A DNA stretch of 64,000 nt from Ridgeia piscesae (Eukaryota; Annelida; Polychaeta; Sabellida; Siboglinidae). The first letter of the stretch is position 1. Each line of letters starts with the position of its first letter. Made by a program: the position numbers and the translations under genes. The stretch is from positions 432,501 through 496,500 of the forward strand of contig JAODUO010000477.1 of the NCBI GenBank assembly GCA_025642075.2. The letters run 5' to 3'. Below the pieces are notes generated by a model. That model searched no databases. It saw nothing but the letters and a program-made list of their open reading frames with translations, and had not been told where the DNA came from. Below, one piece after another: positions 1,755-63,315 of this stretch.

Positions 1755-2992
1755 TGTCGCCCAAAGTAAGCGCGGCTATGTAAATTAATACATTCCTCAC
1801 ATACAGTAATAACATTACAGCATGTAGGGCTGGTTTTGGGGTTAGTATTAGGCTTAGGGTTAAGTTAGATTATATCCGATTAGATTAAAGTTACATTTAA
1901 GGTACTTATGTCAAGATTGACATCAGGCGTTTACATGCATGTGTGTGCACAGATCACTGTTAAAATTCTGCACAGTCACTGCGGTCATGCTACTGATATG
2001 CAGATCAAATTTCATCAAAATCACACGTCTCAGGCTCTTTTAAAATGCATGCATGTGCACTGTCCGTCAATATTGACCAAGTTTAGCATGTGTTCTGCAT
2101 CCCGCAGGGTCATGTAAGAAAAAATTGCGCCAAACATCACTACGCCAACTACACTCTGCCTAACACGCGTCATTACACATGGGTCATACCACGATATTGT
2201 TAAATACACGATTCCATATCGCTTCCGATGTCTCTGTCTAACTTTGCTCTGACCCCTTGCACGTGGAGGGTGTAGCAAAATAGCCACTTCCGGAGATCTA
2301 TGGGTCTACGCAAAGTGTCCTGGGTAAATTGCGTTCGTGTGAATACGCGAAAGTATAACAAGAATAATTGTGATGCCTGCGGTGGAAGTGAGATTGACAT
2401 GTCATATACAACACATACATACGTTATATTAATCCGCCGTCCACTCACAATGTAAATAAACAATTATCTAGTTTAAACAAATTCTGTTAATTTACACTTT
2501 ACACTTACCATTTCGAACGCAGCATAAACTTCCGCACACTATCTTGGGCAATATAGGGCCTGTTTCTTTAGGTAAGTCCTATACAAAACAAAGGTAAAAA
2601 CTGACATTTCGAAGTAGTTCCTATGAGGCGCAGTTGTTCCTGATATCATCAATTCTTCTAGCGAGAGTCTGCTGTAAATGTTGTGATTGAAAACGTCGAA
2701 ATCTTGTTTGCATATCACGTAATCGAGTATTAGTTTTAAATGCAGATAGGAAATTGTGGTTCATTTAATTATAATGAATTAAAGAAACACGGTTAAAGAT
2801 TAAAATTATGAATAATTCCAAACACCGTTTTGAAATTCATGTCGCGTCAACCCATTACGTTGTTCTTCGATTACATATTTGAAATGTAGTAGATTTAAAT
2901 AACTATACCAGTATAAACATTGCTGACCAACGAAACGCAAACGAAATTCAGACCTTCGCCGACTCCTTTATTCCTCTCGTAAATGCCAACGT
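1755..2992. other. No recognised feature
   Basis: Several short open frames exist on both strands, but none shows family motifs or paired splice signals. Confidence 0.45.
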
Positions 2993-4281
2993 GTCGCCAC
3001 CTTCTGTTGCTAACGGAGGCTGGTACATGACTGTACCTGTCGCCACCTTCTGTTGCTAACGGAGACTGGTACATGACTGTACCTGTCGCCACCTTCTGTT
3101 GCTAACGGAGACTGGTACATGACTGTACCTGTCGCCACCTTCTGTTGCTAACGGAGACTGGTACATGACTGTACCTGTCGCCACCTTCTGTTGCTAACGG
3201 AGACTGGTACATGACTGTACCTGTCGCCACCTTCTGTTGCAAACGGAGACTGGTACATGACTGTACCTGTCGCCGCCTTCTGTTGCTAACGTAGACTGGT
3301 ACGTGACTGTACCTGTCGCCACCTTCTGTTGCTAACGCAGACTGGTACATGACTGTACATGTCGCCACCTTCTGTTGCTAACGGAGACTGGTACATGACT
3401 GTACCTGTCGCCACCTTCTGTTGCTAACGTAGACTGGTACGTGACTGTACCTGTCGCCACCTTCTGTTGCTAACGGAGACTGGTACGTGACTGTACCTGT
3501 CGCCACCTTCTGTTGCTAACGGAGACTGGTACGTGACTGTACCTGTCGCCACCTTCTGTTGCTAACGGAGACTGGTACGTGACTGTACCTGTCGCCACCT
3601 ACTGTTGCTAACGGAGACTGGTACATGACTGTACCTGTCGCCACCTTCTGTTGCTAACGCAGACTGGTACATGACTGTACCTGTCGCCACCTTCTGTTGC
3701 TAACGGAGACTGGTACATGACTGTACCTGTCGCCACCTTCTGTTGCTAACGGAGACTGGTACGTGACTGTACCTGTCGCCACCTTCTGTTGCTAACGGAG
3801 ACTGGTACATGACTGTACCTGTCGCCACCTTCTGTTGCTAACGCAGACTGGTACATGACTGTACCTGTCGCCACCTTCTGTTGCTAACGGAGACTGGTAC
3901 GTGACTGTACCTGTTGCCACCTTCTGTTGCTAACGGAGACTGGTACGTGACTGTACCTGTCGCCACCTTCTGTTGCTAACGGAGACTGGTACGTGACTGT
4001 ACCTGTCGCCACCTTCTGTTGCTAACGTAGACTGGTACGTGACTGTACCTGTCGCCACCTTCTGTTGCTAACGGAGACTGGTACGTGACTGTACCTGTCG
4101 CCACCTTCTCTTGCTAACGGAGACTGGTACGTGACTGTACCTGTCGCCATCTTCTGTTGCTAACGCAGACTGGTACATGACTGTACCTGTCGCCACCTTC
4201 TGTTGCTAACGGAGACTGGTACGTGACTGTACCTGTCGCCACCTTCTGTTGCTAACGTAGACTGGTACGTGACTGTACCTG
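2993..4281. repeat. 46-bp minisatellite, 28 units
   Basis: Uninterrupted array of a 46-bp unit containing CGCCACCTTCTGTTGCTAAC and an inner GGTAC..GTACC inverted repeat. Units differ mainly at two positions: the base after AACG (giving gga, gta or gca) and tacAtg versus tacGtg. The length is not a multiple of three, so frames shift between units and the minus-strand open frames are not genes. It begins after an AT-rich stretch and ends at GGCACGCG with no coding sequence beside it. Confidence 0.95.
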
Positions 4282-13300: not shown

Positions 13301-16300
13301 ATTTTTAATATTCAAATTGAGTTACAACCTTTTTTGGTAATAAAAAAATCAAGTGTTTCAGAACAATCACTTCTAAATCAACACCTGTCGAGATTGTTGT
13401 ATTTTGTTCATTCTATTCTACAAAACATTGTTAAATCATCAAATGTTTACTACGGTACATCCTTTGCTGCAAAGAAGAAACTGCTAAAGATGTGTCAGAC
13501 ATTATACTTAAAAATATATTTTCTACCAGTTTTGTGACAAACTGTCTACTGATCCCATCTTTGAACAAATCATAGTATCTTTGTTCAATAAACAATAGCA
13601 AGCTAGGATTCAGGCAGAAAAACTTTCAAAATGTTTTTATGAATTTACCATATTTTGGCATAATCTATGCAAATAAAATATGGTTTTTCGGCGCCAGATT
13701 TCACTTACCATTTCAGAATGAAAATGGCGCTGATGTATGCTGGTAACTCCACCAGGCCACACATAAACAGGTTTTCATACTTGTTGCCACTGAGAGAAGT
13801 AATCGCCATGGACAACCCGTAATAACACACAGCCATGACAAACCTGGAACACAGAAAACCACTGAAAAGTAATGAACAATTCAGAGTGATATCATATCTG
13901 CAGAAGACCTACCTTTCCCAAACAAAACCGGGTGTTTTAAGGGTACAACATAAAACATTACAATAACCATATGTATGTATATAAAACATCATAACTTTAT
14001 CATGTACATGTAACAATTTATATTAAAATTAAATATGACGAACCCATAAGTAAAGCAGTTGATCATGTGACCACTGGCGCACATGTACATTTAAAAATAA
14101 ACTACACCATTGTATTAATGAAATTTCGCTGAAACTGTATGGCTAAATTGTCAAATTATACAGATATTATGATGACCATGTATCCTAACAGGAGGCCAAT
14201 CGTCTAGGATAACAGGTTCATTCCGGAATAAAAAATAAAAACTATCAATTATAAAAACACAAAGTAACTGCAACTAACATGTAAGATAATTACAACCTTT
14301 GACTTTAACACTGGCAAGCTGCTTTTTTGAAGCTGATAGGCCAGTTCAGACCACCACTTTTCATATATTACTAGCCCAAAACATCTGACTGGCTCATACC
14401 TAGCGATTATGTCCATCGCATTTTCACATCGCACTGTCTACTCAACCACATTACTACAAACTGCATGTTTTATTAAAAATAAATGCACATATATATTAAT
14501 ATTATATTCCCGCAAAATTTGGAATGGTAACTTTAAAAATGTGTTGGCCCCTGGGGATACAATTTGACATTAATGTCAACGCCTGTTATGAAATCTTATA
14601 AGATCACTGGACACCCGTCTTGACGTACCAAATATAGAAGAGGACCAAAGTCCGCTTGCGTAACTGAGGTGTGCGAAGCATATCCAAGACAGTATAGCGA
14701 TGAATCTTTTTACATTCGTCCTTTGAAGACGTGTTAGTTTTCTCGTTCTCACTGCGAGATCCACTGAACAGCTCATCGGGTATTGTCACCCCGTTGCTTT
14801 TTGCCATGTTGCGAAGAATGCGCTCTGCGTCAGATAATCGGCCCTGTGTGACGAGCCAGCGAACAGACTCAGGGATCAACCTGCAAGAAATCAGTCGTGC
14901 ATGACAAGCTACTGGTACTTGGTATGTTTATTTTTTGGCAAAATCGATTTGAGATAATACAACTGAAAAAATTGACCTAAAGATATCACTTTAACATTGT
15001 TGCCAATATCTGAGGAGATCCTTATTAACATTACTGCCAACGACTGAGGAGATTCTTTGACTACTGCACCCAATTACTGAGATCCCTTTAACATTTAACA
15101 ATGTTGCCAATAAATGTGGAGATACCTTTAACATTGCTGTCAATCGTTGTTGAGATTCCTTTAACATTGCTGCCAATTACTGTGGAGATTCCTTTAACAT
15201 TGCTGTCAATTACTGTGGAGATTCCTTTAACATTGCAACCAATGACTGGGTAATCCATTTAACATTGCAAGCAATTACTGTGGAGAACCCTTTAACATTG
15301 CAACCATTTACTGAGGAGATCTCTTTAACATTGCAACCAATTATTGAGGAAAGCCTTTTAACATTGCAGCTAATTACTGAGGAAATCCATTTAACATTGC
15401 AACTAATTACTGAGGAGATCTCTTTAATATTGCAACTAATTACCGAGGAGATCCCTTTAACATTGCAACTAATTACTGAGGAGATCCCTTTAACATTGCA
15501 ACTAATTACTGAGGAGATCTCTTTAATATTGCAACTAATTACCGAGGAGATCCCTTTAACATTGCAGCTAATTACTGAGGAAATCCATTTAACATTGCAA
15601 CTAATTACTGAGGAAATCCATTTAACATTGCAACTAATTACTGAGGAGATCTCTTTAATATTGCAACTAATTACCGAGGAGATCCCTTTAACATTGCAAC
15701 TAATTACTGAGGAGATCTCTTTAACATTGCAACTAATTACCGAGGAGATCCCTTTAACATTGCAACTAATTACTGAGGAGATCCCTTTAACATTGCAACT
15801 AATTACTGAGGAGATCCCTTTAACACTGCAACCAAAGTGAAACTAAATAGTGGTCTGTCCCCAGCACACTGGGACGTGAGAACTGACCAGATAAAGACGA
15901 TGGTGATGGTGCTGGGTAGGGAGATGGCCAGTTGGATGTGTCTCCAGTCGCGGAGGGCGTAGGAGATGATGGCCAGCCACACAACCCCCACCCCCCAGAA
16001 CACTTCCACAATTGTGCCCGTGTAAGTTCTGTGTTCCGGCAGTGACTGCTCCATGATGAGTACATAGCAGCAGGTGTGTAGACCCTGAAACACAGCAACA
16101 GGTGTGTAGGCCCTGATACATAGCAGCAGGTGTGTAGGCCCTGAAACAAAGCAACATGTGTGTAGGCCCTGATACATAGCAGCAGGTGTGTAGGTCCATC
16201 AACACAGCAAAATATTTTCAGAGCCTGAAACAAAGCAGCCCATGTGAAGACCCCAAAATACATCTGCATGCTGTATTCAGGGCCTGTAATCCATGAAATA

Positions 16301-19764: not shown

Positions 19765-20391
19765 ATATAGCACATATATAATCAACATCATTTGGCCACT
19801 TTATAATTTCTGCTGTATTTAATTACCTCCTGTCAAACAACGTCAAACTACTTCAAGCACCGTAGCTCTTTCAGGGCCTGACACAATATATACATATATG
19901 CTATATTCCCACTTGGCAGTGGTGACTCACCTACAGTCTTACACACCTTATCAGACAAGCCAGAAATGTGCTCAGCCAGACTGCTGTGATAGCCTATCTG
20001 AGACCTAACAACACACCTTGCTGCACCAAGTCATCAACAGCCTCTGGCCAAATGCACTGTATAACCACTGACACTGACTCCAGCTGCTGGCAATACTGGT
20101 TACATGACCTCAACTCTAGGCCAGCCACTCAACTTACAGGAGCAAGTCTATAGGTATTGACCAACATAATGATACAACTCTATGAAATCAGGACATGGCC
20201 CTGTAAAGTGTAAACATAATGTCAGGCAATGTCATCCAGCAGAGCTGATGGATAATTCATGTCACTTGTCAGTCAGGGCCAACCACCCCAGGGGCCAGGG
20301 GGAGCACTACCTATACTAGCTGTACTGTGGATGTGCCAACTTCATGGTTTGTTTTGTGACTGAGTCTCTGAAGATTAATAAGGGCCTGTTT

Positions 20392-20880
20392 TAACATGTT
20401 CTCCCTAGAACAAGGGCCAGTTTTAACATGTTCTCCCTAGATCAAGGGTCCGTTTTAACAATATTATGTTCTCCTTAGAACAAGGGCCTTTTTAACATGT
20501 TCTCCCTAGAACAAGGGTCCGTTTTAACAATGTTATGTTCTCCTTAGAACAAGGGCCTTTTTAACATGTTCTCCCTAGAACAAGGGCCGTTTTAACAATT
20601 ATTATGTTCTCCCTAGAACAAGGGCCCGTTTTAACAATATTATGTTGTCCCTAGAACAAGGGCCTTTTTAACATGTTCTCCCTAGAACAAGGGCCCGTTT
20701 TAACATGTTCTCCCTAGAACAAGGGCCCGTTTTAACATGTTCTCCCTAGAACAAGGACCCATTTTAACATGTTCTCCCTAGAACAAGGACCCATTTTAAC
20801 ATGTTCTCCCTAGAACAAGACCTATTTCAACATGTTCTCCCTAGAACAAGCACCAATATTAAACAGAAGTTCCCTAGACA
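20392..20880. repeat. Variable 31-39 bp minisatellite, about 15 units
   Basis: Units share GTTCTCCCTAGAACAAGGGC followed by a GTTTTAACAT linker. Some linkers carry an extra AATATTATG or similar insert, so the period varies. It lies between the transporter's first coding exon and the proposed upstream exon. Confidence 0.9.
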
Positions 20881-21478
20881 AGGCTATCACTTCAATGAAC
20901 TCTTCATCTCTCCCTATAATAAGAATAGGTTTTTATCGCAACTGCATTCACAGTTACCCACAGTGTATATTTTGGAATATCGCCAACTACTCGGGACAAT
21001 TTTCATGAGACATTCAGCCAAAATAATTCAAATACTTACATTAAAAATGTGTATTTCTTAAATTTTCCCCTAGATCAAGGATATATATTTTATCTGGGAT
21101 ACCCTTATCAGAGGCAGGGGTATGTGACTTTCAGCTGCTCGCCCCTATCTACATGTAAGGATAGTGACCCCCAAAGTATAGGCACCCAGGTAGACCAAAC
21201 AACCCCGGACATGTAACTGATTAAGCAACTATTTATTTGACAACAATATGTCACACTTAAAGTGTTTTTGCAGCTGGTTTAACATGTATCTTAATTATCA
21301 GTGCCTCTGATGCAAAACCCTTTAGAAAAACCCGACAGGCACCTAACAGCTGTGTTCAATTGATGTACACCATCACATGCCTGGGCTGGCATTGCAATAA
21401 ACTGTGCAGGCAATTTCCAGAAAAAAAACCACAACTAAAACTGGTCTTGAATAGGATGATGGAGGTTGAAGGTCAAAA

Positions 21479-29613: not shown

Positions 29614-30622
29614 ATTTATGTAAGTATGTGTATGTATGTATGTATGTATGTATGTATGTATGTGTGCATATGCGTAACCTTATGTGATGTTTTTCCTTCT
29701 AGACGATTTGTGTCTCAGGCGATAATACCACACGAATATAACAACACATTTAAAAATACCCCAAATGTACTATATACTAAGGGCCTATAGTTTCTGCACC
29801 AAGTATGTCGTGGCTACCTTGTCTGGGTATTCAAACCGATGCACCAGGGTATCATGACCTTATGATGAATGATAAATAGTACGTCATGACCAGCTTTTGA
29901 CGAATGATAAATAGTACGTCATGACCAGCTTTTGACGAATGATAAATAGTACGTCATGACCAGCTTTTGACGAATGATAAATAGTACGTCATAACCAGCT
30001 TTTGACGAATGATAAATAGTACGTCATGACCAGCTTTTGACGAATGATAAATAGTACGTCATGACCAGCTTTTGACGAATGATAAATAGTACGTCATGAC
30101 CAGCTTTTGACGAATGATAAATAGTACGTCATAACCAGCTTTTGACGAATGATAAATAGTACGTCATAACCAGCTTTTGACGAATGATAAATAGTACGTC
30201 ATAACCAGCTTTTGACGAATGATAAATAGTACGTCATAACCAGCTTTTGAATGATAAATAGTACGTCATGAGCAGCTTGTGATGTTTGTAGCCACAGCCG
30301 AGGCATCGCACATCGGGACCTAAAGTGTGAAAACATCCTCTTGGACCAGCACAACAACGTGAAGATAGCGGGTAGGCACAACTCAACATATGAACCAGTT
30401 TGAAGGCTTTCAGCATATTGTCACAGCGATACTTTGCATGGCGTGTTAATTAAAAATAATACTGATTGATTGTTTAAAACAAACTTTACTGAATTGATGA
30501 GTGAATGCAAGCGTGTTTGGGTGCATCCGCGTCGTATTCCGATTTTTCAAAGCATTGTAGTGCCACTGAAATACTACATTTTGTCAAGTATGGCTAAACG
30601 ATCCGGATTCTTTATGATGAAG

Positions 30623-52499: not shown

Positions 52500-52963
52500 T
52501 CGTTCGTATACTCTATACAGCCCCTTCTGGGGCTAACATAGGAGTTTGTGCGGTGCGCAAGGCTAAAGGTGCATGAAGATGAAAGTGAAGGTAGAAGAAC
52601 AATAGAACTGAAAACGTGCGATTAACTGTGTATATAAGTGTAATAATTTGTTCAGATTAAAAACAGTTTGCTGTGTATATTGTTTGGCTATAATCTGGTG
52701 AGGTGGGCTGGAGCAACAAGGTGGATGGTACTGAGGGCTTGTTGGAATGGGTGTAGTGTTGGTATGCTTATGACTTCTGGGGGGAGTGTGTTCCAGGCCC
52801 TAATGACTCTTGGATAGAATGAATATGCATATGTATTGATGCGTGCGTGGATTTGTAAGTACTTGTTTGGATTGCTGTTTCGTGTACAGGAGGCGTACCG
52901 GTGGTAGTTTGTTAAATTGTAGGGCCCCTTTGCATTTATAATAGATGCTTCTATAAATTTCAT
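52500..52963 (-). mobile_element. 3' end fragment of a non-LTR retrotransposon
   Basis: The minus-strand frame 52963-52688 reads TYAYSFYPRVIRAWNTLPPEV, like the extreme C-terminus of LINE polyproteins (Y-S-F-x-P-R-x-I-R-x-W-N-x-L-P). It is followed by a 3' UTR with CCCCAGAAGGGGCTGTATAG (near 52520). No reverse transcriptase core remains. Confidence 0.65.
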
Positions 52964-55835
52964 ATGGTTACAGTCACATTGTTGCCTTAGAACAATGTTG
53001 TGATCATATGTCCTTTATCGGCAGCTTATCGATTAAGTAGATATGGGTACTTAATTTGTAATATTTTCAATCGAATTACACATTATATATCATCAACTGT
53101 ATCTCTGTGTGATAATACATAGTCGAATTGAGAATAATATTATAAGTCTACTTTGCGGTGCCTAGTAAAAAAAACACGTATTTGGGCTAACCGTTTGGTT
53201 TTTTCCGAGGCCCGTGCATGTAATATGGGGTATTTTCAAAAAGCACAAAGGCTATAGATGAATCGGCGTGATGCCACAAAGACCCTGTCCACAGGACAAT
53301 ATTTTACTTAACGATTACGAAAGTTACTGTTATCAAATGTCACTTATTCTATGGCAATAGTGCGTGTATAACCACATGGCTAATTAGCCTATCATATTAC
53401 AGCATCAGAACGTCAAAATCATAAGTTTTGGAATAAAGTTATATGCCCATTCTCCCCTATTCAGGCGCCATACCCCACCATGCCCTTCCTCATAACGTAT
53501 ATCACAAGAACACAAAGACACATCTGATCTCGCATCTCAAATGACAGAACTTCACCGTCTCTCAAGCAACGTTTGTATTTATTCCAAGATGTCGCCACTA
53601 TGTGCAAGAAGGCACTGCTTAATCTCTGCATATGTACCTACATGTTGCACAAACTACATCCTTCTACAACTATTGACAGCCGTAGCAAACATGTGGGCTA
53701 TGCTGCTGACTGCCTGTGGAAGACACATACGTCTTAATACATACATCTATATTTCTAACACAGCTGGTCTGGCTGCATCAATTCAAACAAAACAGTCGAT
53801 TTCCGGACATTTTATAAACGTCTTGGTAACCTTCAGCAGCTTAGTACTATACTTATGCCATGCCCATGTTATTTGCAGCTCGCTTATTTACTGAAACGAC
53901 CTTCTGAATATTGCCCATTAAATTCCATTACACATTGTTCGTCATTTCAATGTGTTGTCCGTGAAAGTGTCCAATTTAATAAACAACATTCAATAATTTT
54001 TAGTAAATGTATCCTATCTGAGCACGCCTTTTCATGACTAGTACACTACATACAGTCGAGAACGTCACAGGTTTCTAGTGGGAAAGGTACAATTGTTTCA
54101 GCGAAATTCTGTACATGTGTGTGTACCAGATACTTTTATTACAACTCCTGGCTTGAGATGTTGATTCGAACACAGTTCAGATTAACTGCAAGATGTGGTG
54201 AAACATAATTGGAATGTCCATGTTCCTGGTCATCATACTTTATATGACGTCTAGGCCTCCGGCCATCTAGCTAAAACAAAAATTACCCATCATGCTTCGC
54301 AGCATCACTACCCGTATTTACGCTGTTGTATTGGCTTTCGGTTGTACATCAAAATCAAATTAGCTATTATTACATGCTGTGTCTATTCTACTCAACAATC
54401 ATCTTATTTAGTCAATATATGTGCATTTCTGCAACATCCCCAGGACTATGAAATAGTCAGGTTTGTTCGAAATCGCATTCCCACCCTCAACTTTGTCCCA
54501 TGCTACAATGACAATTCCTGCCTGTTTTCTTTCATGATTACACTTAATGATTTTGTTATGTCACGTTTCTGAGCTCAGATTCTTAATGATCAATATAGGC
54601 ACTATAGAACTGGTAATATTATTATTCTAATTCATCACATTCCTTTAAAACATCACCTTGAATATAACAAAAACAAGCTTTGTGACTTCTACGTTTCATT
54701 GCGTGCATATTCCTAACAACACACCTATCCCATTGAAATAGCACATCATTTTGATTATACATATCACATGCACCATAATAACGTCCATATATAAAATGGA
54801 GGAATTTGTATTTTTAAAACACCTTGTGTGTGCCACGTTATTTATCCTGTTAACGTTGTAGAATCATTACAATAATGTACTGCCTATGTATCAATGTTAC
54901 TAGTCACCTACTAAATCCATTCAAGTAGTAACAACAAAATTGTTGGCAGCAGTTTCATACGATTAACACAATGTTTGCGGCGAACTGCAAAATAATGATA
55001 CACATAATACCCATAAGCTTAGCAAATTTGCAAAGCACACACAAGTAAACGTATAATAATTTGACCACATTTGAGTTGCAGACGAATGCCTCAAACAAGT
55101 AAACGCTTTGCACATATTACAATCAGCATTTTGACAGCAGCCATTCAAGCACAATTTCTGTTACAAAAAGACCTGTTACACTTTCAGCACCAGAGCCACA
55201 ATAGATGAACACACTTCAAGAAATAAATGTAAACTGATACACTGCCGTCAACATGGTATCCAGCAGCAATGCCCTATCACAAACAACTCTCTATTTGGTG
55301 GCTACACCTGTTATGGAAAGATTGACTGAGTGAATGAATATGTAATTCACTGGCTCCTTTAAATCATAAATAAAGTGTACTTGAATTAAACTAAGGCTCG
55401 TCCTCCTCTTCACCCATTTCAACATGAAACCTATGGTATTACTAAGACGTTAGTGAATCAATTATAAGTTGCCATTTTGCAACCAATCATAGAAGCAACA
55501 TGACCTCGCAGTAAGATTAAATAAAGGTACGCATCAGATTTTTTCCACCAGGCCAAACAAACTTTATATTTCATTACAGACATGACACAAACATAAACGC
55601 TGTGACCATACCGTACCTGTGTCATCACACAGTGACAACATTCTTAGGACATTTGTTACCTCCACCTAACAACCTCTTATATGTATATCATATCACATTG
55701 GTGCCTCTGCTACGTCACAGATTTAGTCAACCACATTTTAAATTCCTGAACAAAGCCTCAGTGGGACAATTCAGTATAAATATTATTTTTTGCAATCTTG
55801 ATTTTGTGATAACTAACTAAGGACTGGACTAGCCA
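52964..55835. other. Gene-poor, AT-rich region
   Basis: Short frames only on both strands, without recognisable domains. The part nearest 55835 is expected to include the distal 3' UTR of the NUDT9 gene or its downstream flank. Confidence 0.45.
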
Positions 55836-56180
55836 CAGTGACGTCATCACAGTGACGTCATCACAGTGACGTCATCACAGTGACGTCATCACAGTGACGT
55901 CATCACAGTGACGTCATCACAGTGACGTCATCACAGTGACGTCATCACAGTGACGTCATCACAGTGACGTCATCACAGTGACGTCACCACAGTGACGTCA
56001 TCACAGTGACGTCACCACAGTGACGTCACACAGTGACGTCATCACAGTGACGTCACCAGTGACGTCACCACAGTGACGTCACCACAGTGACGTCACCACA
56101 GTGACGTCACCAGTGACGTCATCACAGTGACGTCATCACAGTGACGTCATCACAGTGACGTCATCACAGTGACGTCATCA
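55836..56180 (-). repeat. 14-bp minisatellite of CRE-containing units, about 25 copies
   Basis: On the minus strand the unit is TGATGACGTCACTG. All of about 25 units contain TGACGTCA or its GTGACGTCAC-centred variant. Several units read GGTGACGTCACTG, and a few lack 2-4 bases. The first triplet of the first unit (56180-56178) is the stop codon of the NUDT9 reading frame, so the array starts at the stop and fills the proximal 3' UTR. Confidence 0.92.
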
Positions 56181-58399
56181 CCAGTGGGCATTGTGCAGCT
56201 GGGCTACTTTCTTGACAAATTCGGAGTGACTCGCAAACAGCTGCAACGTTCCAGTGATGTCCATCCACTGTACCCCCACCGCGTCGTCACCTACACAGAA
56301 ACCAGAACACTGAACATTAGTCGACCTGTCGCTCTCACACACTCGCCAGCCCACCCACCCTCCCAGAGTCAAGGCAATTAACAGGGGCAAACTGTAGTTT
56401 TTAATATATTGAAGCACAGTGTTAGTCACTTAGTTTATGACAGGATGACTGATCCTCATCTACAACCACACCAAACCAGTTCAAGCTGGTTGTTTCCCGC
56501 GGGACCATGAAGCGTCCTACCAAACCCAGCAGTGGGCATTCTTGTCTCAGTGATCGACAGAGACACACACAAGTTATTCTTCTCATTCTCCCTGTGCCAT
56601 GCCACCATGAGGCCATGCGAAACGGGAAGGGTTTGACACCCAGAGGGATGCAAGCCCCAGGATTGTCTGGCCATATGACCACAGTCATATGACCATGACC
56701 CTGTAACATTGCATATCTGGTCAGGCGAAATATCTGGGCCTCGCAGCCAGTCCTCTTGGTGTCACAGCTTGCCCCAGAGAGATACAGCTGGGAATTTTGC
56801 CAAAGTAATAAAAAAGTTTATACCTTAACAAAGATGTGGGGCTGTTCTGTCATAAATTGAAGGGTTATGAAACCACTGTGTGACTACACTTTAGAAACCT
56901 ACACTTGGAGGCCGCACCATAACCTTAGTGAAGGAACAGTGTAGATTAGGTATCACAACAGCTTAAATCTCGCAAAGGAATATAAATGAGTGTTCAACAC
57001 ATCTGCATGAATATTACCAAAAGCATGATTGTACACAGTAAGACATCCTTGCTCACTTGCAATCTGGCCTTTTCCTTGCTAACGTCTTAATAAAATCTTC
57101 ATAAACCAAATAATATACGATATAAAACAAAAACTGACAGCGCTGCTACGTACCTGCATGCAACTTGAACATGCCTACATTGGTGCCTTTCTCATCGTGG
57201 AAGTTGACTGCAACTGTTTCCATCCAGGAGTTGTCTGTGTTCCGCGGGTCATCCACGTAGCCCTTATACACCTGCTCAGTCCAAGGGTACCCATTTGCAA
57301 CATACTTAACACAATCTAAATAAGAACAACTCATTTCTTATTTAGCAAAAATGGAACCCAGAGATAACGTCATAGTTTGTGAGCCCATACAACAAGCAAT
57401 CAAATTTCTTAGTTCGATGATTTGTGGCAGACGGTGCAATGTACAGAGATGCATCGAACAGTTTCTGTACATAACTGCCTCAGAAATCTGACAGACATAC
57501 TGCAATTTTTGCAAGGATATCAAAAATAATTCTAAACTACATAAACCACCCCAACATATTGCTGGATATTTGACTTTTTGATTTACATTCATAGAAAAAG
57601 GCTTTGTGCAAAAAAACCAATAACTAGTGCAAACCCTTAAAGTTGCGTTCTGAGACATCCCATCGTTTGTATACAAATTACCAGCATGGCTTGTAGACCA
57701 TATGTTACGTTTCTCAAATTTGTAAAGACTTTGTTCATATTATGCAAGTGTAATATAAAAAAGTGCAAAGGACAAACAATTTTATCTGCATTCCAATAAT
57801 TTTGCAAAAGCATGATTTATTGAACAACATATCCAATGTTATGGTAGCATATTTAGTCAAGTAAATCTATATTATCCTTGATATACATCATATATGCTGT
57901 TAAAAACAGTTAATACCTGATGATGGTAGTTTAACACAAAATGCAACTATAACCAATGGGGATTTAAAAAAGAGATAAGCATTCTGGATTCTCCCTGTAC
58001 TCTGGGAGAATCCATAATGCCTATCTCTGTAGACATAGAAGTATACCAAAATCTATAGTTCCAACAATAATAAATAATGGAGGCATTAGTTTTGACGCTT
58101 GTGGTGTGAAACCATTGATTAACCGAGTTGTACATGCATGACGGAACACAAATATCTAAGTGTAACTAAGAGTGCAGGTCGATTAATTACCTCTTGTCCT
58201 TGAGAAAAAAGTGTAGAAATCTTCTTTGCAACTTTGTTTTTTTGATCAGTGGATGTGTTGCTCATAGCTTCCTCCATAAATTCACGTTTTAACGTTGTTG
58301 ACACCTGCTCACCAGCGTCGACCATTCCCTGCATGGCAACAAACAATGCAATCATAATTATATCATGATACAATTCCACTCAAATGATATTATTCTATT

Positions 58400-58448
<49 letters not shown>

Positions 58449-61400
58449 TGTGCGGTGCGGTGCGGTGCGGTGCGGTGTGGTGTGTGGTGTGTGTATTATA
58501 CCCACGCATTCCTATGATTCCTATGCATACATGTTGTACAAATATATATATTATATACACATACATTAACTGACATTTTGACAGCCAGAATTTGAATCGA
58601 TCACATCTTAAATACACACCCCAGGTATGGCCCAGTCCCCATTGTCTTGGCGTTTTATGCACACAAACTGCAAAATTGGTTTCTTTGTTGTCTTGTCGAT
58701 TACTTTTTTCCCTTGTTTGTCTGTCTTCCATCTGAAAAAATCATCAGCATCAATAAACAGTCAGTTAGCATATGACTCGTAATAGTTACAATGACTATTT
58801 ATCACTTTAATTGCACAACAATAATTATTAAAACACACTTTTCAAAGTTAACACTCTCAAGACAACGCAGAAAGTATTTTGGTTTGGCTTGGTGCTGATA
58901 TAATAAAATAATCTGTAGTTATTTATTTACTTTATCTGTCAGAAAACAGCAAACTTATAACTCTTGTAGTGCTGACACAGACGGGCAATTTGTTTTACAC
59001 ATGTGACAAAAACCTCATATGCATTGTCTTCTAATAAAATTGTGATAATACAATCGCAGTAGAATGATAGTCCGTCATTGCAGTGATTAAATAGAAACCA
59101 GTGAAGAAGCAGCTGGCGGGATACAAATAATGGAAGGAAAATATCCACTAAAGAAGGTGAACATACTTTGACTGGGGACTGAAGAGAAAAATCATAACAA
59201 GATTTTTAACAAGATTTAACAAGATTGCCACCTAGAGAATCAACTTCAGATGGCAGTTAGACAAGGAAGCCCTTTGGCTTGTCGAGAGTCCAACCTATCT
59301 ATCTAAGTGTACCCTGTATATGTCAATTTTATTTTTAAACATATTAACACTGCTAGCACCTACACAATCAACTGATAATATTATGTTCCATTCGTTTACT
59401 GTTCTTTGTCGAAATGTGAATGTTATATCTATATACAGCAACTGTATATGTATCTAGTCTACACTGCTTCTTTGCTAACGTAACTCCATGTCCTCTTAGT
59501 CCTTCTCTCTTCCTTAACTGAGAAACATTTTCTCTATCAATATTTTCATACCCATTCCCATTCAGATGAAATGATAAGGAGGACTTGGCAGATTTGGAAA
59601 GGAGAGAACAACAGCTACCGGTAGACATTATCAGCAGAAATGGCTGGAAGGGAACAGTGAAAGGTGATGGGAAAACAATTGAGGCATCACCCCAGACCAC
59701 AGGGATAGAGACCAGAGCGAAACAGCAACACTACGAAGACAGCCATCGGCCGACATCGTCTACAGCGTACCGTGTAACTATTGGGTCTGCAGCATGGTTT
59801 GGACCCCAGCGACCAAGGGTGCCTCGAAGACAGATCCCTGTTCGCCCAACTGGATTCCTGCAAAGGATCATGGGAATGCATAAGCACGAGGTGGACAGAA
59901 TGAGGTATTGTAAAATAAACACACATCATTGTGTGAAACAATCTCTCGTTGCTGCTTGCATGTCAGTGCTGAGGTCAGGTGGTCGTTTTAAGATGTCAAT
60001 GTTTTGTCCTAAAGTAAAAGTTTGAGCCAGATGTTCAACAAAATACACGAACAGAATTACCAAGTGTACCATATGTTTGGCATCCATTCATAACAGCCTG
60101 ACATCTTTTGCTAGACAACAGTTCATGTGACAGATAGAGTCAGTGGTTAAGTGAAGATGCCAGGTCCTAGTTTTATTTTTTCATTTAATATTATTGTCTT
60201 ATGACTCTCTCTCTTTGCTGTCCATTATGCCTGATGATGACATCAGTATTATGACTACAACATGCATGTTGAAGGTCCTGCCAGTCAGTGTGTATTTAAT
60301 TACTTTATTAAGATCGGAACAATTATTTGAAGTTTGAACAATTCTGCCAGCAACACTTTCAAATGGTAAACAAAACATCCAGTTTCAAAACAAAATTCAT
60401 TGGCAATAATGTCGAGGCGAGTAGAGTTAACCCCAATACCCTTTGATGTTTGACTTTCCCACATTCTAGACAGCATGCTTCTCATTATAAACTACTGCTC
60501 TGCCAAGTGTGTGTGTGTGCATGCATGTATGTGTCCATGTGTTTTGAATTTTACAAGTTTTACAGATAAATTAATCATGCATAATTCTAATAAGCACATT
60601 AGCCCCTAGAAATGCTGCTTTTGTTAAATTATGTAGAGTTTTCTAGAATACCTCAGTTACAATTTATCGCAAACAAACATATATAACAATGCTACATTTA
60701 CCAAAAAATCTATGAAATAATATGTCTCGTCATACAAAGTACACAGAAAGTTCACAGAAGGCTTATAGGTGCTATCTTTATTACCCACCTTGGTACACCA
60801 CCTTCAAGCTCATATTTGCCCAAGTAACTTATAGGTGCTATCTTTATTACCCACCTTGGTACACCACCTTCAAGCTCATATTTGCCCAAGTAACTTATAG
60901 GTGCTATCTTTATTACCCACCTTGGTACACCACCTTCAAGCTCATATTTGCCCAAGTAACTTCGTCTGTCTACATTTCCATCCAATTCATTCCACTTTGG
61001 TGGGACTGCTGGCTTCTCATTTCTGGAAGAATACATGACATGAACATGTGAGATGATCACAGATATTGGAAGTGTGCGATAGGGTAGTGGTTAGCAAATC
61101 ACCTGGAACACCAGCACCGGACTGTCACTCGAGGGGACAGTGGCTCCATCCCACCTGCCGCTGTTTTGAAACGTAGGCAACTTCGTTCATCCCACATTTG
61201 TCTGCGTCTTTCGGAAGATACACTAAAAGCCGGTGGTCCCTTCTGTCTGGTGTCTATGCCAGGGGAAGTAAAAGATCCCACACAGGGGTAAATGTGTAAC
61301 CTGTAGTGGACTCACAAATTCTAGAGAACAACAACTCCTGCATTAACCCTAGTTTGGGCTATTTGGAGGTAAACCTAAGGCATCCAGAAATGCATTCATA

Positions 61401-63315
61401 TAAAATTATGTTCCACTTGACTAGAGAGCCACTCTAGTGATTACATTTCACATCAATGCTTGGTAACAACCTCCCCACAACCCACCCTGCCACTATGACG
61501 CATTTGTTAGGACTGTAACCTCAGGTAACCCCCTCAGCCACACCTCACGTTGGTGGTTGTCTAGGTTTATGAGACGTCCATATTACATTAATTTCCAGAT
61601 GAATGTGTAACCTAAATAAGGTCTTCAGAATCAATAGCAAATCATCATATGAAGTGATTTTCAACAATAAAGCCTGCAATTTCTATGAAATGCTCAATAG
61701 TACCCAGTAGATCATTAATTGTGACAGGCAATCAATACTTCACTGCAACATGTGTAAAACATCTAGTATGAAGAGAGAGATGCAGCCATGTAGCACACTC
61801 AGATCACGCAAAACAGAGAAAACGTCTCTTGCATATGCTAGTGGCGTTAAAAAGGGGATTACATGTACATGTAAAATCCATTAATGACATTACAAAAACA
61901 CAGCCATCTGTCTGTGCAATGCCAGATATCCTGGCTAGTTAGTGCATACAATTATACAGTTTATGCTAACTACTGTGTATACCACACTATTTTACAACAA
62001 TGACCACCTGTGAGTGCATTGCCAAATCTCACTTTATATTCACATCCCAATTAAGGTTACCCCAAGGTAATTACAAATTTGTTGCACATACCGTTAGGTA
62101 TAGGAAAGATAACATGATCACCTTGATAAACAGGTGACATCAGCAGTTCCTAGAGTGATCTACTAGTAACATTCCACCAGAACCAGTGGATAGGCAGCTG
62201 GTGCCCTCTGGGATTTAAACATGGAGGCACCATTATGAAAATTGACAGCACTCTCACCACGATGGTACCAACTGCATGCTATCTCGCTCATAAGTCTCTC
62301 TCAATTTTGGATGTCTCATCAATGTAGCGCGATTTTTTTAATGAAAACTTACAGCATAAACGATCTTACAAATGTCACAGGACTAAAGTTTTAAACAAAT
62401 GTTTGCTCTAGGACATCACAGTAATTAATGTAAAATAGTCATATATTTAACCACTACCAATGTTTCTAGCAAAAGGCAAAGCTTCACGCAAGTCTCGCAG
62501 ATAATTCTTATTGTGATGTAGGCTAACTGCAATGGCACCAGTTACTAGCTTATCCAGGGCAGAACTTTTATCTATTTTATTTATAGTGATGCTCATTTTT
62601 TGGAGATCATGAGCTATTTTATTCACAAAACTCTCTGAAAATAGTATGGCGTTACAAATTAGTCTTACAGTTTCTTAATTATGAACACAACATTGGCAAA
62701 ACAAACTAGTTTCATCCAGGGACACCGTCAATATGGGTCTGAAGAGAACCAACTCTGTAATCCAGTAAATCCACTAGTCCTGGGGACCACTTCACTAAGA
62801 TAAAGAGCTCTTAAGGAAACCCATCTTTGAACAAAATCGGTTGTTACATTAAAAGATTTTTTCGAAACGTAAATATCCATTGGTGTATTACAGAGAACAC
62901 TATTTCTATGACAAACAAGTGACAATGTCCCACTGGTGCTTTGTGGTGTTGACATTTAAAAAAAAATCTAAATCACTGTTAAGGATCAAAATATATATTG
63001 AATTCCAAAATCGGGTTTGAGAGCTCTTAACAACTTTAGTGAAATGGTCCCCTGGTTCCACCAATCACAGAGCAGCGTTACTTACTTGAAGTCTGGGTCT
63101 GCCCAGACAGGTTTCTTTAACACTGCATCCGAGACAAACTCAACTGGTTTATACTCGGGGTATTCCTGCTTCCACGAGACAAGGGCGTCGGGCACTTGGA
63201 AGCGGTTTATGTTCTTTCCGCGTGGATACAGCTGATTGCGACATTTGTGATGTGTTATGGGCGTAGCCACGCATGAGGTAGACATCTTTGGGGCCGGACT
63301 CAATAAGTTACCCAT
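56178..63315 (-). CDS. NUDT9: ADP-ribose pyrophosphatase, NUDT9 type, 7 exons, 299 aa as modelled
   Basis: Hydrolyses ADP-ribose to AMP and ribose 5-phosphate; the vertebrate enzyme is mitochondrial and cytosolic. Exons in transcript order: 63315-63086, 61022-60921, 59857-59771, 58731-58620, 58328-58191, 57271-57154 and 56290-56178. Phases agree (2,2,2,0,0,1) and total 300 codons. Diagnostic segments: WADPDFK at the end of exon 1, [36 protein letters not shown] (exon 3/4), ILQFVCIKR and WAIPGGMVDAGE. The Nudix box is G178-x5-E184-x7-REFMEE (192-197), with the REFxEE residues needed for activity. [16 protein letters not shown] and [11 protein letters not shown] follow. The start at 63315 is the first ATG after a strong acceptor at 63327, so an upstream exon, perhaps with a targeting peptide, may lie outside or be unrecognised. 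A TRPM2 NUDT9-H domain is less likely given the NUDT9-like motifs. Exon 2's donor is triplicated. Confidence 0.93.
58400..58495. repeat. (GT)n and (TGCGG)n microsatellite
   Basis: GT run followed by five GTGCG-type pentamers and GTGGT units, in the intron between NUDT9 exons 4 and 5. Confidence 0.95.
59206..59562 (-). mobile_element. Short 3' fragment of the same CR1 family as 41311-44495
   Basis: Closely matches 41320-41650: the TTAACAAGATTGCCACCTAG tail, GAGAGTCCAACCTATC, AACACTGCTAGCACCTACAC, and the end of ORF2 reading NGYENIDR. Severely 5' truncated, it lies in the intron before NUDT9 exon 4. Confidence 0.85.
60168..60500 (+). repeat. Copy 3 of the ~280-bp dispersed repeat
   Basis: Shares TTACTTTATTAAGATCGGAA, AAATGGTAAACAAAACATCC and CCTTTGATGTTTGACTTTCC with 26138 and 47096. 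A short CTCTCTCTTTGCTGTCC-containing insertion is seen near 60206-60250. Confidence 0.7.
60762..60959 (-). repeat. NUDT9: 66-bp tandem triplication spanning the NUDT9 exon 2 donor
   Basis: Three units start at 60762, 60828 and 60894 and appear identical. Each contains the last 39 exon bases and the first 27 intron bases, so AAG|GTGGGT donors occur with exon ends at 60921, 60855 and 60789. Using the first-transcribed donor (60921) gives the normal protein. Confidence 0.93.
61070..61375 (+). mobile_element. tRNA-derived SINE
   Basis: Starts GATAGGGTAGTGGTTAGCAAAT (A-box-like), with a degenerate B box GTGGCTCCATCCC. Then come CGTCTTTCGGAAGATACAC and GGGAAGTAAAAGATCCCACA, body motifs that recur in marine-invertebrate SINEs. 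It lies in NUDT9 intron 1. Confidence 0.65.
61376..63085. other. NUDT9 intron 1, no further feature recognised
   Basis: AT-rich sequence with no exon-like block. Short frames on both strands lack motifs. Confidence 0.5.

Follow-up and report, generated by a model that had tools for sequence, protein, structure and literature searches.

In human segmental-duplication genes, internal tandem repeats (minisatellites) have been described at exon-intron boundaries, where, according to De Grassi and Ciccarelli (2009, PMC2812944), transcripts both retaining and removing the repeat occur. Tandem duplication of a segment containing AGGT is in addition an accepted route of intron gain, for which ATP2A1/ATP2A2, 24-bp repeats in fission yeast and a potato RdRp serve as cases (PMC4974935, PMC3443670, PMC2891723).

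What becomes of duplicated donor sites depends on how the exon is recognised. By an earlier proximity rule centred on the intron, which PMC9225289 ascribes to Reed and Maniatis, the donor nearest to the downstream acceptor is favoured; at near-equal donor strength this rule is reported there to hold for short introns, with a switch to exon definition near an intron length of 250 nt. Five human-cell minigenes with 365-nt introns, each offering a pair of identical strong donors, spliced exclusively from the upstream one; when both donors were weak, this preference persisted in the shorter constructs, whereas in the longer ones the exon was mostly skipped (PMC9225289). The same source reports that among human events of near-equal strength the upstream donor is preferred in 60% overall, more clearly in exon-defined classes and also in the LL events, and that without a strength filter the downstream donor is preferred in all four intron classes. 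This exon-definition rule rests on human genes and cells, not on annelids.

The locus described here, in a NUDT9 gene of the annelid Ridgeia piscesae, joins the known boundary minisatellites. Like the human repeats, it appears to be a recent minisatellite lying over an exon-intron boundary that may change splicing and protein length. The repeats of PMC2812944, as described there, involve novel introns, some of them arising via cryptic sites, in recently duplicated paralogues, whereas the units of the present array each contain the native donor of a gene found in one copy. With the intron-gain cases the locus shares the tandem duplication of an AG/GT-containing segment, and with those of fission yeast also the presence of multiple copies; in the intron-gain model of those reports, however, an exonic AGGT is duplicated and an intron created, whereas here the donor of an existing intron has been duplicated and a new intron is unneeded. 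What is unusual is that the donor of an existing intron has been tripled in frame. Among the literature titles searched, none mentions a tripled NUDT9 donor, although this does not prove that such a report is absent from print.

A perfect 66-bp triplication at a NUDT9 exon end

Seven exons visible in the window (the whole stretch of 64,000 nucleotides that was analysed) splice to an open NUDT9 of 299 residues (Table 1). The similarity to human NUDT9 is full-length (1q33_A, E 2.1e-99 over residues 21-299), and the best of 2704 homologues is the NUDT9 of the tubeworm Lamellibrachia satsuma, with 76% identity and homology that reaches a few residues upstream of the ATG at 63315, to 63333. The match to the Nudix family (PF00293) starts at residue 163. 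The Nudix box, GMVDAGEQVSTTLKREFMEEAMS, has the G, E, RE and EE of the general signature, given as GX5EX7REUXEEXGU in PMC5671594, in place and lacks its last G, a residue that the aligned chain of human 1q33 (REFGEEALNS) lacks as well; in this the box is as in human NUDT9.

A counterpart of the leader exon of L. satsuma NUDT9 was matched on the same strand some 12 kb upstream (L003:3263-3409, minus strand, E 9e-17 in a small local database). Because of this upstream leader exon the gene is one for a stand-alone NUDT9 enzyme, an ADP-ribose pyrophosphatase, and the C-terminus of a TRPM2 channel was ruled out as its identity. The leader exon, which lies outside the window, also carries a hydrophobic stretch, LYVNTRWCWLLVFCTCVLVF, which suggests a membrane anchor or targeting segment. 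Once it is counted, the triplicated exon is the third; the label "exon 2" used in the preliminary description holds for the coding exons inside the window. The 628-Mb assembly yielded a single set of NUDT9 exons: a search of it in which only the best candidates were scored gave seven exon matches at one locus and no retrocopy with a processed junction. A plasmid collection gave no match, as expected.

Table 1. Coordinates of the array, its units and the NUDT9 exons in the window
Feature	Position	Strand	Basis
Perfect 66-bp tandem array, 3 copies + 3 bases (AAG, both ends)	60762..60962	-	TRF, sequence
Unit 1, transcribed first: last 39 nt of exon, donor 1, 27 nt of intron start	60894..60959	-	sequence
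Unit 2: duplicated exon end, donor 2, intron start	60828..60893	-	sequence
Unit 3: duplicated exon end, donor 3, intron start	60762..60827	-	sequence
First NUDT9 coding exon inside the window, taken from the ATG at 63315	63086..63315	-	translation
Triplicated NUDT9 exon without extension, 102 nt, between two phase-2 introns; donor 1 AAG/GTGGGT after 60921	60921..61022	-	translation; aligns to human TRPM2 residues 1292-1325
Exon extension with donor 2, +22 residues	60855..60920	-	in-frame translation
Further exon extension with donor 3, +22 more residues	60789..60854	-	in-frame translation
Next NUDT9 exon, starts within Arg codon of R/NPVGRTG	59771..59857	-	translation
NUDT9 exon	58620..58731	-	translation
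NUDT9 exon, most of Nudix box (GMVDAGEQVSTTLKREFMEEA)	58191..58328	-	translation
NUDT9 exon	57154..57271	-	translation
Last NUDT9 coding exon, stop TGA	56178..56290	-	translation

Direct reading of the sequence and TRF (period 66, 3.0 copies, 100% matches, score 402) agree on one perfect three-copy array that straddles the end of this exon and its donor, with head-to-tail units of more than 10 bp crossing the exon edge. The preliminary description had reported three tandem units at 60762..60959, which is the same array minus the three-base overhang (minus-strand AAG) that its two ends share. Chance cannot account for a perfect triplication of 66 bp, and one such locus was found in the 628 Mb (4875 contigs) that were searched.

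The sequence AAG/GTGGGT is common to the three minus-strand donors, 60921, 60855 and 60789. The acceptor of the triplicated exon is TTCTTCCAG, and the three donors have a common downstream acceptor at the start of the next exon, 59857. In-frame translation is open from all three, giving 299, 321 and 343 residues, with donor 2 or donor 3 adding WVIKIAPISYLGKYELEGGVPR once or twice. The spliced translation bears out the gene name, coordinates and frame given earlier, as well as the peptide starting WVIKIAPI and the arithmetic of 22 or 44 residues, and it places the insertion where it had been proposed, directly before NPVGRTG. Selection need not be invoked for the open frame, because with the intron composition of this gene a repeat would have a period divisible by three and also be stop-free with a probability of about 0.21 (0.633 x 1/3 for the frame, 0.633 being the stop-free fraction among 5658 positions, drawn from five introns out of six).

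By energy of pairing with U1, the three donors tie for first place (-11.5 kcal/mol) among the 72 GTs that the exon and its intron contain, and the five other donors of the gene pair more weakly (-4.3 to -9.5 kcal/mol). In plain consensus matches the array donor is middling, with 6/9 against 5 to 8 for the other five. Each unit also contains, 4 nt downstream, a candidate donor that would shift the frame (TGG/GTAATA), which was set aside for its weaker pairing (-6.3 vs -11.5 kcal/mol).

Choice among three identical donors

The introns that flank the triplicated exon are 2063 and 1063 nt long, and 931 nt of intron remain downstream even from donor 3; at such lengths exon definition is expected for this exon. 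The situation resembles that of the PMC9225289 minigenes, with identical donors on one exon and introns longer than 250 nt, in a natural version with three donors. Those were, as described in that report, two-donor constructs in human cells with CAG/guaagu or the weak GAG/guguca, whereas the donors here are AAG/gugggu. By this analogy, donor 60921, as the closest one, would mostly be paired with the acceptor at 61022, the additional two units would remain in the intron, and the expected main product is the ordinary NUDT9 protein with its 299-residue core. Donors 2 and 3 have the sequence of donor 1 and follow extensions that are open and in frame, so that small amounts of the +22 or +44 isoforms would be possible. 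Overall, we consider a young triplication of the minisatellite type, mostly silent and with minor long isoforms possible, to be the probable explanation of the locus.

The preliminary description had gone further, in that the gene could produce three length variants from equivalent donors. The sequences of the donors are indeed equivalent and the frames are open; their positions probably are not, as the upstream one would be favoured under exon definition, and equal use would be at odds with its exclusive use in the minigenes of PMC9225289. A gene in which the three donors were used side by side, yielding NUDT9 variants of +0, +22 and +44 residues in meaningful amounts, would draw on the tied U1 pairing, on the three open frames, on a Nudix match left untouched by an insertion after residue 111, and on the human boundary repeats, for which alternative splicing, often with support for the repeat-retaining transcript as well, is reported (PMC2812944). 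The minigenes argue against such use, as do the related proteins and the predicted structure considered below, and we regard it as unlikely.

If instead the intron-proximal donor 60789 prevailed, the main product would have 343 residues, 44 of them extra. That outcome would follow from the intron-centred rule and would fit the downstream leaning of human events without a strength filter, both as presented in PMC9225289; the same source confines the rule at near-equal strength to short introns, and the 931 nt that follow donor 3 do not form one. It would also depart from a length that varies by no more than 2 residues among the 120 relatives listed, and we give it very little credence.

The AAG/GT in each unit could serve as acceptor as well as donor. 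Successive donors delimit a 66-nt GT...AG segment, and in a Rogers-type gain the units would act as newborn introns of 66 nt, the removal of which would lead to the same final mRNA. Duplication of AGGT is an accepted beginning of such introns in the reports cited above. The AG of the repeat is preceded by a poor pyrimidine tract, with 7 of 16 positions compared with 8 to 12 of 16 at the six real acceptors, and a new intron would be superfluous, as donor 1 yields an identical final mRNA. This reading appears to us the least probable.

RNA structure hiding donors 2 and 3 was also considered. Folding of the whole segment spoke for it, donor 1 being the most open in 38 of 42 folds; local folding did not, as the difference was gone when pairing was limited to 70 nt (openness 0.012, 0.012 and 0.008), and no weight was given to this candidate.

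Junction reads had been proposed as a test for the variants. The transcripts of donor 1 and of donors 2 or 3 are identical in their last 42 exon-side bases, and those of donors 2 and 3 share 108, so short junction reads are unable to separate the donors; the test is invalid with short reads, and long reads are needed. Splices between repeats that are invented by aligners are a known artefact, as described in PMC10632439.

The insertion site in relatives and in TRPM2

The inserted residues would enter after Arg111, directly before Asn112, the Asn of NPVGRTG, which is invariant in an alignment of 40 relatives picked for spread from the 120 listed of 2704 homologues. Among these 120, the length of the stretch differs by 0 residues in 79, by +1 in 40 and by +2 in one, and none has an insertion of at least 3 residues at the site; the comparison used annotated proteins, which cannot reveal extra units inside introns. 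The annotated L. satsuma protein reads RRSHMGEYKIVKGVPRNPVGRTG, without the inserted residues; over the repeated coding stretch and the residues immediately preceding it, it agrees with the protein encoded here at 9 of 16 positions. A database search for the inserted peptide yielded no protein at E <= 0.001 among 313 candidates, scored over a 71-residue stretch and without a positive control. In the predicted model of an annelid relative (P0035), the insertion site falls in a confidently predicted coil (block mean pLDDT 93-94). The uniform length, the negative peptide search and the confident prediction all argue against side-by-side use of the donors. As a separate observation, in a comparison of P0002 with P0004 (Lingula anatina), P0002 is 91 residues longer and has a stretch that includes the Nudix box repeated, as if by duplicated exons or a faulty gene model.

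Skipping of the triplicated exon (102 nt, phase 2 on both sides) would be an in-frame loss of residues 78-111, which align to residues 1292-1325 of human TRPM2, as counted on the HMMER alignment with a 7-residue offset between 6puo and 6mix. These are the residues missing from the human splice variant TRPM2-deltaC according to PMC8307439; the triplicated exon is therefore, within the NUDT9 homology domain, a known site of splice variation. The likeness lies in the stretch concerned. TRPM2-deltaC lacks it, whereas the exon here could lengthen it, and the gene here encodes a stand-alone enzyme.

With the same offset, the TRPM2 residue aligned to Asn112 is N1326. Human TRPM2 carrying N1326D is reported to respond neither to ADP-ribose nor to H2O2, while the ADP-ribose response of a sea anemone channel was unaffected by the corresponding mutation (PMC4917252). 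New residues ahead of this conserved Asn would probably impair the handling of ADP-ribose, and we infer an inserted form that keeps the catalytic domain yet probably handles ADP-ribose poorly. The match to TRPM2-deltaC makes the edges of the triplicated exon of interest for ADP-ribose enzymes and channels.

Origin and significance of the array

No copy difference is seen at 198 site-copies, which puts the 95% upper bound on divergence at about 1.5% per copy if the copies change independently; conversion among copies would mask the age of the array. As the copies are identical despite the divergence of the protein from that of L. satsuma, the array event, or a homogenisation of its copies, likely postdates the split from that species. 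Under the preferred explanation, a recent event of the minisatellite type would have tripled 66 bp comprising the end of the NUDT9 exon, the donor and the first bases of the intron; the likeliest origin is a tandem duplication between the 3-bp microhomologies (AAG), with slippage or unequal exchange as the later step.

The window contains 35 merged tandem arrays that cover 7857 of its 64,000 bases. Thirteen are minisatellite-like, and two of these overlap NUDT9 coding exons. Long minisatellites lie at 2992-4281, 14990-15832, 20380-20883 and 29859-30282, with units of 46, 33, 32 and 35 bp. A 14-bp x 25.5 array at 55834-56186 (consensus CACAGTGACGTCAT) starts within the final two codons of NUDT9 and extends over its stop codon, so that NUDT9 has minisatellites over two of its exon ends; the consensus unit contains TGACGTCA, the sequence of the CRE/ATF site. 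A minus-strand open frame at 52688-53014 contains YPRVIRAWNTLPPEVISIPTLHPFQQAL, which looks like the end of a LINE reverse transcriptase.

An improbable explanation is an error in copy number or an assembly that records the state of a single allele, with a true locus of one or two copies or of a number that varies among animals. Three copies without any difference would fit such a case, as would the finding of one locus and one exon set, and no second haplotype, in the 628-Mb assembly, and such arrays are described as often polymorphic in PMC2812944. Against it, much harder repeats are resolved on the same contig, namely 28 copies of a 46-bp unit and 290 bp of pure TG, and the window contains no N; this suggests long reads, for which 201 bp is short.

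The array could be a copy-number-encoded series of donors, in which the number of units sets 22-residue steps before the Asn of NPVGRTG and a polymorphic minisatellite tunes the enzyme via donor competition; we consider this very improbable.

Should the array prove silent, which is the expectation, it would be a young repeat of an ordinary kind. It shows a route by which a minisatellite can reach a splice donor while the reading frame stays open, and, as a natural competition among three identical donor sites, it could be used to test the proximity rule of exon definition outside vertebrates.
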